Assembly: GCA_017427405.1 (NCBI GenBank)
Contig: JAFRSV010000002.1
Coordinates: 62,001-126,000 of the forward strand
Length of the DNA: 64,000 nt
Origin: Alphaproteobacteria bacterium
GTDB lineage: Bacteria; Pseudomonadota; Alphaproteobacteria; Rs-D84
Direction of reading: 5' to 3'
The position numbers and the translations under genes were made by a program. The stretch's first letter is position 1, and each line of letters starts with the position of its first letter. Below the pieces are notes generated by a model. It was not told the origin of the DNA, made no database searches, and saw nothing but the letters and a program-made list of their open reading frames with translations. Shown in pieces: positions 853 through 59,399 of the stretch.

Positions 853-3270
853 TTAAATATCGCCCGCACCTTGTTTTCGCAGATATTCTGCAACAAACGC
901 CGAACCGAATTGGCGATAAAGTTCTTCGGCGAGCAGCACCGACGAACGACCAGATTCAAATAATTTTAACAAACTGCCCAATCCCCCAAGTTCGGTATTC
1001 AAAATTACCGATTCATTATTTACCGGTCGTGACAATAACACCGCGCGTTTAAGGTTCGGATAGGCCTTGCCTTGGATAAACGCCATTTCAAGTGGATTCA
1101 AATTCCAATGTTCATAGTCCGCCGCGTCCGCCGCCGGATTGCGGAAAAACATTATCGTTTGTGCCTGGCCACGGACAACATCACCGATACCAAGTTTATC
1201 CAAAACATTTGCGCGTTGGAACGCAACCATATACGCCTGGCGATTTTTGCGTCCTTCTTGGAGGCCGGCAATAAAATTATCACGGAACATTTGGTTTTCA
1301 AGCATCGGCGCGGTTTCGTCAATCATAATAAGTGACGGATTTCCACCGGCAACCGTTGTATTATTTATTCGGTGTAATATATATGAAATAACCGCGGGGG
1401 CAAGGACGGGGTCTTGCAAAATTTCGGTAAAATCGAAAGTGGTCAGGCGCGATTGCAGGTCCAGCGTATCGCTTTCTTCATTAAATATGTCGCCGTATTG
1501 TAATGGGTCAACCCACTTTTTCAACGCGGCGCGCATTTTGCCGGATGACGAAAAACAACTTTCCCATAAATTTTTCAACATTCTATCTTTATTAACCAAA
1601 TAATCAAAATTCACCGATACCGCACGGGCGATTTCATCTTCGGAAAGTGGGTCGGATTGTTCGGATATCATTGAAAGCCAACGACGCAAAAATCCGCGGT
1701 TTGCCGCCGTATCCGACATTTTTAGTGGGTTCAGGTGCGCAAGGAAATTTGTTTCATTTTTTTCCTTGCCCTGCATTGTTATATATTTTCCACCGGTCGC
1801 AAGTGTAAAGATTTCCGCACCTTTGTTCCGGTCAAAGAAAAACGCCTTTAATTTCGGATGCCGCATAGATTGCGCAATAAGGAACGAAAACAGTGTTGTT
1901 TTACCACCGCCGGTTGGTCCGATGGTAAGTGTGTGTCCAACCGCCGCCGGTTTATCCGATACATGAAATTGGAATTGATACGGTGTGCCTTGGGCCGTTG
2001 GGAATATAACAAGTGGCCCCGGACCCCAATCGGAATTTGATATTCCGCGCGGGGCAGACGACATTGGAACACTTATTGCCGCGGCGCGCGATAACATTTT
2101 AAAGGTGCGCGGGAATGTATCAAACCCGGGGATAATTGAAAACCATGAAACCTTGGTTGCAAAACTTTCTTGGATTGGTGACACGCCAAATGATGCAGAA
2201 ATTTTTTTGAATTCATCAACATGTTCTTTTAATTCAGATTCACTTTTTGCAAAAACAATAAACAATGGATAATAATTCACAAGTGTTTGATTGCCGGAAA
2301 CATTTTCATCCATTACCGATTCCGCGTTTGAAATTTGTTCTTCGGTGGAATCGTTTTCTTTGTTTGCGACACTGCGGCGTTGGCGCATTACGGCCTCTAC
2401 ATCCGATGCGCCCATAATTTTAAAGCCGTTCATACAAATCATTTCTGTTTGAATTGTGTTTATCGAATCAAAAAAATCTTCGTCCAAATAATCCGGTGCA
2501 GCACGGAAAGATATAAGCGCCGCAAAATATTCATAATTACCACTTGTATATTTAACAGTTCCGTTTGGTAAAAATTCGACATCATCAACCGTTGCGTTTT
2601 CTGTGATTTTATCATCACACACCGCCGGCGCGGGTTTTGTTATTGGTGATAATATTCGGCCAAAAAACTTTGCCATATTGTCGCGCGATTTGTTTTCGAG
2701 CATTTGCGGTTTATACGGCGCAAGTATTGATTCGATATAATTTCCATACTGATTTAGTTTGTCGCGCGCATGCGCCCCACGAACCGATAACACAATATAA
2801 TAGTTGTTCAAAAATATCTTTAAACCTTGGGAATGCCATTTATCATAAATCTTTTGTAATACCGGTTGGTCAAATTCATAGTCAGTATTTTCCGCAACCG
2901 CATCACGGGTCGTAAAAAACCGCAAGATAACATTTGGGTCGTGAATTTGGTTGAATAATTGCGCACGCAGGTCAAGGAACTTTTCACGCTGTTCATCGGT
3001 TTGCATACTGGTTTGGACACCGGCAATCGAATAGACACGAATTAAACAACCGTCACTTAATTCAATAGAATTATCGGTATAAACCGTGTTAAATGGTATA
3101 TATTCCGCATAATGTTTATAACCAAACTTTGGAAATACATGTTTCACAATCATTGGAACATACATCAGTAAAACAATAAAAACGAATATAACCGCAACCG
3201 CCATAATTGTTAGTGTTATGGTGTTTGAAAATCCATTGCCGGCAAAATATTTGAAAAATTCAGGTATCAT
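853..3270 (-). CDS. virB4: VirB4-family type IV secretion ATPase
   Basis: 805 residues, the usual length for VirB4/TrbE/CagE ATPases, which power substrate transfer and pilus assembly at the inner membrane. A hydrophobic segment lies at about residues 17-43, as in forms fused to or associated with VirB3-like parts. The Walker A motif GPTGGGKTT is at ~451-459 and a Walker B-type strand SLIMIDE at ~646-652. It overlaps the upstream virB3-like gene by 4 bases, so the two are translationally coupled. No other VirB genes lie to the right; the remainder may be beyond the left edge or elsewhere. Whether it serves conjugation or effector secretion cannot be told. Confidence 0.9.
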   Translation of the reverse strand: MIPEFFKYFAGNGFSNTITLTIMAVAVIFVFIVLLMYVPMIVKHVFPKFGYKHYAEYIPFNTVYTDNSIELSDGCLIRVYSIAGVQTSMQTDEQREKFLDLRAQLFNQIHDPNVILRFFTTRDAVAENTDYEFDQPVLQKIYDKWHSQGLKIFLNNYYIVLSVRGAHARDKLNQYGNYIESILAPYKPQMLENKSRDNMAKFFGRILSPITKPAPAVCDDKITENATVDDVEFLPNGTVKYTSGNYEYFAALISFRAAPDYLDEDFFDSINTIQTEMICMNGFKIMGASDVEAVMRQRRSVANKENDSTEEQISNAESVMDENVSGNQTLVNYYPLFIVFAKSESELKEHVDEFKKISASFGVSPIQESFATKVSWFSIIPGFDTFPRTFKMLSRAAAISVPMSSAPRGISNSDWGPGPLVIFPTAQGTPYQFQFHVSDKPAAVGHTLTIGPTGGGKTTLFSFLIAQSMRHPKLKAFFFDRNKGAEIFTLATGGKYITMQGKEKNETNFLAHLNPLKMSDTAANRGFLRRWLSMISEQSDPLSEDEIARAVSVNFDYLVNKDRMLKNLWESCFSSSGKMRAALKKWVDPLQYGDIFNEESDTLDLQSRLTTFDFTEILQDPVLAPAVISYILHRINNTTVAGGNPSLIMIDETAPMLENQMFRDNFIAGLQEGRKNRQAYMVAFQRANVLDKLGIGDVVRGQAQTIMFFRNPAADAADYEHWNLNPLEMAFIQGKAYPNLKRAVLLSRPVNNESVILNTELGGLGSLLKLFESGRSSVLLAEELYRQFGSAFVAEYLRKQGAGDI

Positions 3271-56518: not shown

Positions 56519-56932
56519 ATGAAAATATATATAACAAAAGATATAAATGAAACACGCCGGTGGGCGGCGGATTTTGCGAAAATTCTGCGTGCGCCGGTGA
56601 CGGTTGCGTTGCATGGTGATTTGGGTGTTGGAAAATCGGAAATTGCACGAACAATTATTCAAACACTTTGTGGGGCGGATACGGTTGTCCCAAGTCCGAC
56701 ATTTACAATCGTGCAATCGTACGAAAATGAAAAGGGGCGAATATCACATTTTGATTTGTATCGTGTGTCGGACGCGTTCGAATTGGTTGAAATTGGTTTG
56801 CCGTATGCGGTGCAAAATGATATCACACTAATTGAATGGCCGGATATTGCGAAAAATTTCTTGCCGAAAGATACGATTCATTTATATATAACCGAATTTG
56901 AAAACGGTCGAAAAATAGAAGTTGCTGATTAA
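56519..56932 (+). CDS. tsaE: tRNA threonylcarbamoyladenosine biosynthesis ATPase TsaE
   Basis: 137 residues. VALHGDLGVGKSEIARTIIQ is Walker A; PSPTFTIVQSYE and HFDLYRVSDAFELVEIGLPY, then ITLIEWPDIAKNFLP complete the TsaE signature. Required for t6A37 of tRNA. Ends four bases into the convergent ftsA-rpe gene. Starts 3 bases after the uvrB stop. Confidence 0.95.
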   Translation: MKIYITKDINETRRWAADFAKILRAPVTVALHGDLGVGKSEIARTIIQTLCGADTVVPSPTFTIVQSYENEKGRISHFDLYRVSDAFELVEIGLPYAVQNDITLIEWPDIAKNFLPKDTIHLYITEFENGRKIEVAD

Positions 56933-58716
56933 ATACTTTTTGCCGATGGTAACAGTGACATCACCGCAAGTGGAAAATCCGCAGCGTGTGCAAGGTATGA
57001 ACCACTGACCAACAAATCGGCACCGGCACCCCAACATAATCTTGCCGTTTCGGGGTTTATTCCGCCATCAACCGATATTGTAAATCGCAGGCCATATTTT
57101 TTCCTTGTTCCCGCAAGTACAGATATTTTATTCAACACATTCATATTAAACTTTTGTCCCGCCGCGCCGGGTGCAACACCCATTACCATAATTTCATCAA
57201 TGTCACGCAAAATTGTTTTAAGTAACGATACCGAAGATTCCGGATTTAATGCGATACCAACACGTTTTCCGGCGGCACGCACAATTTGAACCGCGCGGCG
57301 CAGGCCGACCGTGTTTGTTGAAAGTATTACCGTGTCCGCGCCGGCGTTTATTGCATCGGTTGCCCATGATGATGGCGCATCGGTCATTAAATGAACATGC
57401 AAATGCCCCGGCCATGCGGCGCGTATTTTTCGTAATTCTTCGATACCGCCAGTTATTTTATCAACGTAAAGTCCGTCCATAATATCAACATGTATTACTG
57501 ATATTCCGCCCGCGCGAAACATTGTGTATGTTTCGGGGCGTGACATATCAAAGCAAAGTGTGCTTGGCATAATCGGAACGGCGGTTTGGCGTTTTTTCTT
57601 TCGTTTTTTGCGATGGAAAATGCCAAAAATTTTGTCGGTTGTTCTTTGCCATTTTTTAAGACGTGCAATGTATGCGCGCCGATATGGGCGCGCCGATTCC
57701 CATATATATTTTGCAAGTGCGCGAACATTTGTGTCGGGGCCGGTTTGTGTTATTTCAATGCCAAATGTTTGCGAAAGTAATTCGACAATTCCATTTAACC
57801 TTGCGCCGCCGCCGGTTATGATTATTTCAGTTGGGTTATATCTTTGGATGTATCGCGCCGAATCATTTTTTATTTGTTCAATCAAATTATAAAAAAACGG
57901 AACAACGATTTCGTTTACATCGGCGCACGAAAAAGCGTACGCGGTGTCCGCCGGACTAAATCGTGCCATTTCATTTGAATAGAGATTTGCCACGCCACGT
58001 TTTATCCTTTCCGCTTCGGAAAAACCTATATCAAGTTTTGTTGATATTTCATTTGTTAAATCATTTCCGCCGATAAAGTGGCCGTCATACCATACTGGGC
58101 CACGGTCGGTCCAAATTGATGCAGTTGTGTGTTCGGCACCAAAGTCAATAAACATTACATTTTTTTTCTTTTGACGCAGAACACATGATGTTAAAAATTG
58201 CGGTGCATAAAATGCCGATGGTTGTATGTGTGATTGACGCAATAAACTTAAAATTTTTTGCATACGTTCGTTTTCAAAAAAAATTCCAGAAATCGTAGAT
58301 GTAAGTTTTGTGTCAATTTGGCCAATTGGGGTCAACAGATTCCGCCCCATTGGCGTATCGTATCGCAGTGGTATAATGTGCATAGGGTAAAAACCATCGG
58401 GGCTATCGATTTTTGCAATTTGTGATTTTACATCAGATGGGGTGATTTTATGTTCACCGTTCCAAACGGTTTCCTTGGTTGATATATTAAAAAATGCGGT
58501 GCCAAAATTTCCGGTTATGTATGCCGTGTCGAAATGCGTCCCCATTTGCCGTTCAAGTTCGTCCGCCACAGATTTTAGTGCAAAAACCGTATCAAAATCA
58601 TCAACCGCATAATATGCCGATTTATCAATCATTGCGTTTCTAACGCGGTGCGCAACCCCACGGACACCGCATGTTCCGATATCAAGACACAAAAAACAAG
58701 AATCAATCATATGCAT
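56929..58716 (-). CDS. ftsA-rpe: Fused cell-division FtsA and ribulose-phosphate 3-epimerase
   Basis: 595 residues in one open frame. Residues ~1-345: FtsA actin-like ATPase, with LDIGTCGVRG (phosphate 1), subdomain 1C with ISTKE..., FIDFGAEHTTASI (phosphate 2, ~189-201) and ITGGGARLNGI (adenosine, ~300-310). A basic linker ~350-378 (ARLKKWQRTTDKIFGIFHRK) resembles the FtsA membrane-targeting helix. Residues ~381-590: Rpe TIM barrel with IHVDIMDGLYV (His409, Asp411), HLHVHLMTDAP (His442), MGVAPGAAGQKFN and ISVDGGINPE (Asp550). All four catalytic positions are kept. Starts 2 bases after the ftsQ stop. No ftsZ follows. Confidence 0.88.
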   Translation of the reverse strand: MHMIDSCFLCLDIGTCGVRGVAHRVRNAMIDKSAYYAVDDFDTVFALKSVADELERQMGTHFDTAYITGNFGTAFFNISTKETVWNGEHKITPSDVKSQIAKIDSPDGFYPMHIIPLRYDTPMGRNLLTPIGQIDTKLTSTISGIFFENERMQKILSLLRQSHIQPSAFYAPQFLTSCVLRQKKKNVMFIDFGAEHTTASIWTDRGPVWYDGHFIGGNDLTNEISTKLDIGFSEAERIKRGVANLYSNEMARFSPADTAYAFSCADVNEIVVPFFYNLIEQIKNDSARYIQRYNPTEIIITGGGARLNGIVELLSQTFGIEITQTGPDTNVRALAKYIWESARPYRRAYIARLKKWQRTTDKIFGIFHRKKRKKKRQTAVPIMPSTLCFDMSRPETYTMFRAGGISVIHVDIMDGLYVDKITGGIEELRKIRAAWPGHLHVHLMTDAPSSWATDAINAGADTVILSTNTVGLRRAVQIVRAAGKRVGIALNPESSVSLLKTILRDIDEIMVMGVAPGAAGQKFNMNVLNKISVLAGTRKKYGLRFTISVDGGINPETARLCWGAGADLLVSGSYLAHAADFPLAVMSLLPSAKSI

Positions 58717-58718
58717 TT

Positions 58719-59399
58719 TTATTTAACCAAAATTCTTGTGTCATCGCGCATATCGATGATTTTTATATCCTTGGATAAGATATTGTGTTTTTTATCCAAA
58801 ACAACAATGTTTCCGATTGCGGCGATTGGGTCATTTTCAGGCAACATAATTGTAATTCCACCAAGTGTCACCAAATTCCACCGACGGCCGTCAATCCATT
58901 CTAAATAATCAAGATTGCCAACAAGATTGTGCGCCGCCTTGGTAATTTCGCCGATTTCGTTTGGAACATTCCCGCGGAAAACAATTGTTCCAATTCCCCG
59001 TGTTTCCGACGGTTTTTTTACGATTGTGCCATCCGCAGATATTGGATAATAAAATGTCCCGTCCGTCCATTCTGCGACCGCGGTGTAAAGTTTTACGCGT
59101 ATCGCAAGGTTGCCGTTTGATAACCGTCGAACCGTGGATTTGCGAACCCCGGGTGTTTGCGCAATGCGTTCGTTCACAAGTTCAAGATTTATTGCACGCG
59201 AATGTGTGCCAGGCGCGATACCTGCCGCCGCAATAATCGGCGTAAGGTCTTTGTCATTTGTGTCGGCGGATATGGATATATGCTGAATCATTGCGGTTGG
59301 GCCATATCCCATATGTGCCATAATAATTCGTGCCGCAAAATAAATGCTAAGCAAAATAGCGGCAATAAAATACATCCAAAACCAAAGATTTCGTTTCAT
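58719..59399 (-). CDS. ftsQ: Cell-division protein FtsQ
   Basis: 226 residues from MKRNLWFWMYFIAAILLSIY, the single membrane helix near the N-terminus; a longer frame upstream is rejected. A POTRA domain follows (QHISISADTNDKDLTPIIAA, then SRAINLELVNERIAQTPGVR and RRLSNGNLAIRVKLYTAVAEW), ending with the FtsQ beta domain. It links the early and late divisome in the periplasm. Its stop is followed at once by the ftsA-rpe start, so they form a division operon. Confidence 0.85.
   Translation of the reverse strand: MKRNLWFWMYFIAAILLSIYFAARIIMAHMGYGPTAMIQHISISADTNDKDLTPIIAAAGIAPGTHSRAINLELVNERIAQTPGVRKSTVRRLSNGNLAIRVKLYTAVAEWTDGTFYYPISADGTIVKKPSETRGIGTIVFRGNVPNEIGEITKAAHNLVGNLDYLEWIDGRRWNLVTLGGITIMLPENDPIAAIGNIVVLDKKHNILSKDIKIIDMRDDTRILVK

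Follow-up and report, generated by a model that had tools for sequence, protein, structure and literature searches.

An FtsA-Rpe fusion gene in a family of small-genome Alphaproteobacteria in which FtsZ is undetected

One family of its order (here f1), made up of small-genome Alphaproteobacteria of which several come from ruminant guts, carries a gene that joins an FtsA-family domain to a ribulose-phosphate 3-epimerase (Rpe) domain in a single frame, and FtsZ is undetected in the same family. The explanation that we consider reasonably probable from these sequences is that the FtsA-Rpe fusion is real and that FtsZ has been lost, with an FtsA half that would organize septal wall synthesis and an Rpe half that would be a working epimerase. 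The earlier note expected a new link between pentose metabolism and division; what the sequence demonstrates of such a link is confined to FtsA and Rpe on one chain.

Architecture of the fusion protein

The window, which is the whole stretch of 64,000 nucleotides that was analyzed, belongs to a 1.06-Mb genome assembly (G000; 16 contigs, 95% complete). The frame described in the earlier note, 595 codons for an FtsA-like protein and a complete Rpe barrel, is indeed uninterrupted (Table 1), and both folds are matched. Under the base composition of the window, with bases assumed to be independent, 595 open codons would arise by chance with a probability of ~2e-19. A second in-frame ATG at 58710 is aligned with the start assumed for the relatives. 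An assembly artefact is ruled out: the fusion recurs throughout the family and in 12 named MAG loci, some of which are possibly identical to our numbered genomes, and its recurrence in one frame in relatives excludes a frameshift or a chimeric contig.

Table 1 Coordinates of the fusion gene, its parts, and its neighbors in the window
Feature	Positions	Strand	Basis and remarks
ftsA-rpe fusion gene, 595 aa	56929..58716	-	ATG at 58716; ORF, Pfam, NCBIfam, and family matches
FtsA part, residues 1-345	57682..58716	-	Actin-like FtsA fold (Pfam, NCBIfam, model)
Linker, residues 346-380	57577..57681	-	Extends predicted helix 329-367, then K/R-rich; least conserved part
Rpe part, residues 381-595	56932..57576	-	Barrel; the genome's only Rpe
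ftsQ	58719..59399	-	Pfam; start inferred as the internal ATG without overlap with the next gene
Small gene, 126 aa	59453..59833	-	Precedes ftsQ
tsaE	56519..56932	+	Convergent neighbor; 4-base overlap with the fusion stop codon; context only

The gene order given in the earlier note also holds, since ftsQ lies directly upstream, its stop codon ending 2 bases before the fusion ATG; the longest ftsQ frame reaches 59492. The fusion gene stands directly behind ftsQ in both family genomes examined for this, the window and G041, a single-contig relative that is 99% complete. Neither Pfam nor NCBIfam matches the small gene before ftsQ at E 0.001, and G041 has a 129-aa frame at the same position. Elsewhere in the window, positions 853-3270 (-) encode a VirB4-family type IV secretion/conjugal ATPase (TIGR00929, 374.8 bits; cut-off, 643.1).

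Pfam and NCBIfam place the first ~340 residues as an FtsA/PilM-type actin domain. Pfam FtsA (PF14450) matches residues 189-326 with 41.7 bits (cut-off, 31.8), and the NCBIfam ftsA model (TIGR01174) matches residues 43-336 with 67.2 bits, below its cut-off of 175.85, meaning that the FtsA half is divergent. Judged by its sequence, it is an FtsA-family domain rather than an FtsA equivalog; the equivalog cut-off is missed by all 24 genomes searched from the window's genus and passed by 8 of 16 genomes outside the family. Positions that we take to form the FtsA ATP site are retained in most of 78 distinct fusions (reduced from 88 sequences, which are the best-matching loci and hence over-represent close relatives): D12 in 74, G14 in 78, D191 in 74, G193 in 78, G302 in 78, G303 in 73, and G304 in 71.

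The second half matches Pfam Ribul_P_3_epim (PF00834) at residues 383-575 (1.6e-41, 142.4 bits; cut-off, 21.1). It stays below the cut-offs of the Rpe equivalog TIGR01163 (150.4 bits against 212.6) and the Rpe subfamily NF004076 (162.8 bits against 165). S385, H409, D411, M413, H442, and D550 are kept in 76 to 78 of the 78 fusions. Four of these, presumably metal or catalytic residues of Rpe, had been singled out in the earlier note as retained, and so they are across the distinct fusions: H409, H442, and D550 in 78/78 and D411 in 77/78, with one E. Residues 466 to 469 differ from what we take to be the HPE-type segment of E. coli Rpe. Judged by its fold and its active site, the second half is an Rpe-family domain with a predicted epimerase specificity.

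An AlphaFold model of the whole protein (mean pLDDT, 83.1; pTM, 0.57; 13-sequence alignment) retrieves FtsA chains at PDB ranks 1 to 19 in Foldseek, followed by Rpe chains. Among the FtsA chains, 7q6f reaches a TMt of 0.74 over 381 columns, and the Rpe structure 2fli reaches a TMt of 0.91 with an rmsd of 1.6, both against the predicted model. In this model the long helix that begins in FtsA runs into the basic linker, which is followed by the barrel.

The two halves are conserved to different degrees. Among 35 sequences, 33 of 345 positions are invariant in the FtsA half, 66 of 210 in the Rpe half, and 2 of 35 in the linker; conservation is therefore far lower in the FtsA half than in the Rpe half. 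Rough dN/dS estimates for seven pairs, several with dS > 1 and one linker value undefined, range from 0.06 to 0.11 for the FtsA half, 0.03 to 0.11 for the Rpe half, and 0.08 to 0.31 for the linker. On these sequence comparisons, both halves are maintained under purifying selection and the junction is loosely constrained. At one place in the alignment rows displayed, the FtsA half has a gap of ~10 columns. We do not claim a clean loss of FtsZ-binding residues in this half, because the FtsA proteins of other families (n = 13) conserve few positions.

The linker, for which the earlier note had proposed a basic stretch, is strongly basic and poorly conserved over residues ~346 to 380. The amphipathicity of the window protein's linker is no better than chance, its hydrophobic moment being reached by 24% of shuffled linkers, and in three members of genus g15 (L232, L235, and L236) the linker has just 13 to 24 residues. 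The FtsA proteins displayed from other families mostly end in the typical short helix; most family members displayed have a similar stretch within the linker, followed by K/R-rich sequence. It is unlikely that the family as a rule translates Rpe on its own from an internal start, since residue 383 is Met in only 49 of the 78 fusions and 60 of the 78 lack any Met at residues 346 to 382.

Distribution and origin of the fusion

The same architecture is found in relatives, with the fusion matched in 176 of 184 f1 genomes from 13 genera. Within the window's genus it is matched in 150 of 157 genomes, including 103 of the 104 good ones (G099 is the exception). Among the 149 genus matches listed (G160 is absent from them), 146 span the query from residue 1-5 to at least residue 589 in one frame; the partial ones are G086 (residues 2-528), G146 (1-401), and G100 (1-352, confined to the FtsA part and close to the end of a contig). 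For 7 of the 146 the search counts a single stop codon, which should be the terminal stop because those frames are 591 to 602 aa long. Outside this genus, the family's 12 other genera add matches in 26 of 27 genomes, of which 17 are near full length and 8, from the diverged genera g15 and g19, are single frames of 555 to 617 aa. In G179 the fusion lies in two pieces on two contigs, G173 has a 472-aa frame with Rpe, and the fusion is not matched in G182 (72% complete). The 12 named MAG loci, from sources that include cattle, buffalo, yak, red deer, and horse, show 49 to 95% identity in the best segment. In GTDB terms the order may be RF32 and the family CAG-239, two names that a paper on the buffalo rumen mentions (PMC11177756). 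G041 also encodes a 693-aa fusion of YbeY (residues 41-158) and apolipoprotein N-acyltransferase Lnt (residues 205-371 and 491-644) at L274:17898-19979 (-).

Do separate ftsA and rpe genes exist beside the fusion? In the window genome, PF00834 has one match, the fusion. TIGR01174 has three: the fusion, MreB on contig C16, and a weak match on C9, which lies in a 633-aa frame that appears to be DnaK-sized and not ftsA. Hence no separate copy of either gene is found in G000. The possibility raised in the earlier note, that relatives keep ftsA and rpe apart, applies to other families of the order and fails within f1, where none of the 176 matching genomes has two separate complete genes.

In the other families, rpe is a gene of its own in 12 of 16 genomes searched, and no match was found in G027, G029, G030, and G033. 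The ftsA and rpe genes are direct neighbors in four genomes (G024 of f2, G025 of f3, and G028 and G031 of f6), their frames, as called in this analysis, abutting or overlapping by ≤17 bases. In family f4, an ABC-transporter gene is inserted between them, identified by Pfam in G026 (PF00664 and PF00005, L244:9630-11411) and by gene order and length in the remaining f4 genomes. An ABC transporter with the same two domains is seen in G029 (f2, L255:4403-6151), where it follows an FtsA-like gene of 353 aa that has diverged strongly, and G034 (f4) has a second rpe on a different contig (C15:11524-12093). A second fusion type, suspected from an 891-aa frame ending in Rpe in G037, was rejected: this frame just stays open across a 586-aa gene that is read in another frame, and the rpe starts on its own.

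An Rpe tree was built from 25 of the 78 fusions, 11 other-family sequences, and 7 outgroup sequences, after 2 of 13 other-family loci and 1 of 8 outgroup loci had dropped out, unmatched by the motif filter. All 25 family sequences fall in one clade (support, 100/100) on a long stem (1.26). The deep branches are open, two f6 sequences stand apart from the rest, and the family Rpe is not joined to the Rpe of the order. The tree neither supports nor refutes an origin from the neighboring rpe, so this origin rests on gene order. Adjacent ftsA and rpe genes probably gave rise to the fusion in a single event at the base of f1.

FtsZ, retained division genes, and explanations of the fusion

A search of 202 genomes with TIGR00065 (E ≤ 0.001) found no FtsZ in any of the 184 f1 genomes and a match in each of the 18 genomes from other families of the order: 16 score above the cut-off, G029 scores below it, and G027 has a 31-bit remnant. 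A smaller comparison gave 0 of 24 in the family versus 16 of 16 outside. PF00091 is above cut-off in none of 157 genus genomes, with four scraps of 11.7 to 14.8 bits. A profile of ten FtsZ sequences from the order scores 427 to 542 bits in 17 of the 18 outside genomes, among them the ten from which it was built, and yields just eight scraps of 9.6 to 16.1 bits in the 184 family genomes; this genome search missed the G027 remnant that TIGR00065 caught. An unfiltered FtsZ profile gave at most 8.3 bits over 2,145 frames from G000 and G041 stretches. The G027 (f5) remnant is a degenerate FtsZ-like protein of 422 aa without GGGTG (L172:1171-2436, -), scoring 57.9 bits with the order's FtsZ profile when searched directly, meaning that FtsZ can decay in this order; the FtsZ of f1 might conceivably have decayed further. 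G027 has no rpe match, and its FtsA matches are limited to MreB- and DnaK-sized ones.

Genes for wall synthesis are kept. A SEDS protein (FtsW/RodA family) is present in 184 of 184 family genomes, with two or more matches in 141 of 157 genus genomes and 22 of 27 other family genomes, counts in which a split gene would appear twice. The window genome has MreB, PBP2, and ftsQ; FtsQ is also present in G041, and an MreB-type match, judged from length and range, occurs in 23 of 24 genus genomes. Sampled at 42%, G041 further contains an FtsK-type translocase (395.5 bits with an E. coli-type model; cut-off, 1566), an FtsE-like ATPase (261.4 bits; cut-off, 264.85), and PBP1A (600 bits; cut-off, 509). 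FtsI, a separate FtsW, and transketolase were not located by motif scans of the G000 and G041 stretches or among two 20-frame Pfam batches of long G041 frames. The motif scan also missed the G041 RodA, found by the SEDS search, and its PBP-length neighbor, so this failure is no evidence of absence. The rest of the pentose-phosphate pathway was likewise not found in these stretches by the weak motif scan. Overall, f1 appears as a family with FtsZ undetected and wall synthases kept, its wall being predicted from genes.

Published work reports that FtsN binding leads FtsA to form MreB-like antiparallel double filaments, which are proposed to guide septal wall synthesis (PMC7613929); a review reports genetic studies suggesting that FtsA activates FtsW (PMC10591338). 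An FtsA able to assemble and to address the synthases could organize division without FtsZ. In the explanation that we prefer, the FtsA half would still bind ATP, bind the membrane via a basic helix in the linker, and assemble as an actin-like filament that would organize FtsQ/FtsW-type septal wall synthesis without a Z-ring, and the Rpe half at the cytoplasmic face of this assembly would serve as the cell's working ribulose-phosphate 3-epimerase. The fusion protein would then not be an FtsZ anchor but may act in an FtsA-like manner towards the wall synthases. Rpe enzymes are oligomers, and the fused barrel could therefore, speculatively, cross-link FtsA protomers. A fuller version, in which the family divides with an FtsA ring whose filaments are held by the oligomerizing Rpe, coupling constriction to pentose-phosphate metabolism, seems unlikely.

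The main rival is a neutral fusion: neighboring genes of a shrinking genome merged, the halves act independently, the junction has no function, and the loss of FtsZ is coincidental. We hold this to be a real, if doubtful, possibility. The abutting or overlapping ftsA and rpe frames of f2, f3, and f6 relatives, the other fusion (YbeY-Lnt) in G041, and the low conservation of the linker all fit it, but no matching f1 genome shows two separate complete genes, and the one family in which FtsZ is undetected is also the one in which the fusion is fixed. The fusion and the undetected FtsZ mark the same family; each looks like a single event, so their coincidence counts as one data point.

By analogy with UgtP, OpgH, and KidO/GdhZ, metabolic enzymes that act on FtsZ, substrate or product binding by Rpe might alter FtsA assembly, so that division would track pentose-phosphate supply. 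A complete active site beside a divisome ATPase on one chain speaks for such a switch, but any working epimerase would keep that site, no allosteric feature is seen, the linker is variable, and the weak motif scan found nothing of the rest of the pathway; we regard this switch as improbable. Equally improbable is a reading in which the FtsA half no longer takes part in division and serves just to anchor or order the epimerase, with division carried out by MreB or another system, as proposed for Chlamydia. The divergence of this half, its gap of ~10 columns, the missing FtsZ partner, and the MreB-type matches speak for it; the ATP-site positions kept in most fusions, the purifying selection, and the place of the gene behind ftsQ in the window and G041 speak against it. 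A conventional divisome of FtsZ and FtsA that carries a fused enzyme and whose FtsZ is too degenerate to recognize would be in line with the G027 protein missed by the ten-FtsZ search but is very improbable, given that TIGR00065 caught that remnant and nothing in f1, PF00091 gave nothing above cut-off, and the unfiltered profile stayed at or below 8.3 bits in the G000 and G041 frames.

Comparison with known systems

FtsZ is treated as a near-indispensable organizer of bacterial division. Division without FtsZ is as such already known: reviews discuss Chlamydia, Planctomycetes, and some mollicutes, far from the proteobacterial models. Family f1 would be a family-level alphaproteobacterial lineage that retains an FtsA-type actin and in which FtsZ is undetected. 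Other families of its order bear FtsZ and allow a comparison, which makes testable what FtsA is capable of on its own and by what route FtsZ can be lost. The fusion offers a single-gene marker of this transition and physically attaches an enzyme of central metabolism to a division protein. No report of an FtsA-Rpe fusion or of gut Alphaproteobacteria having lost FtsZ was found in the open-licence PMC literature, among the matches listed.

The fusion resembles FtsA (PF14450; 7q6f, 4a2a, and 1e4g) in fold, in ATP-site positions, and in its place directly behind ftsQ. It differs in being divergent and below the equivalog cut-off, in a C terminus that continues into Rpe, and in the undetected FtsZ partner. 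With Rpe (PF00834; 2fli) it shares the barrel and the metal and catalytic residues, whereas its Rpe half is the C-terminal domain of a division protein and falls below the Rpe equivalog cut-off. Chlamydia is alike in synthesizing wall when it divides without FtsZ, with FtsK and MreB implicated there (PMC4164004, PMC11975371, and PMC7613929). In the text of the paper on the Chlamydia divisome (PMC11975371), however, "FtsA" occurs 0 times, whereas f1 keeps an FtsA-type actin, fused to an enzyme, within the Alphaproteobacteria.
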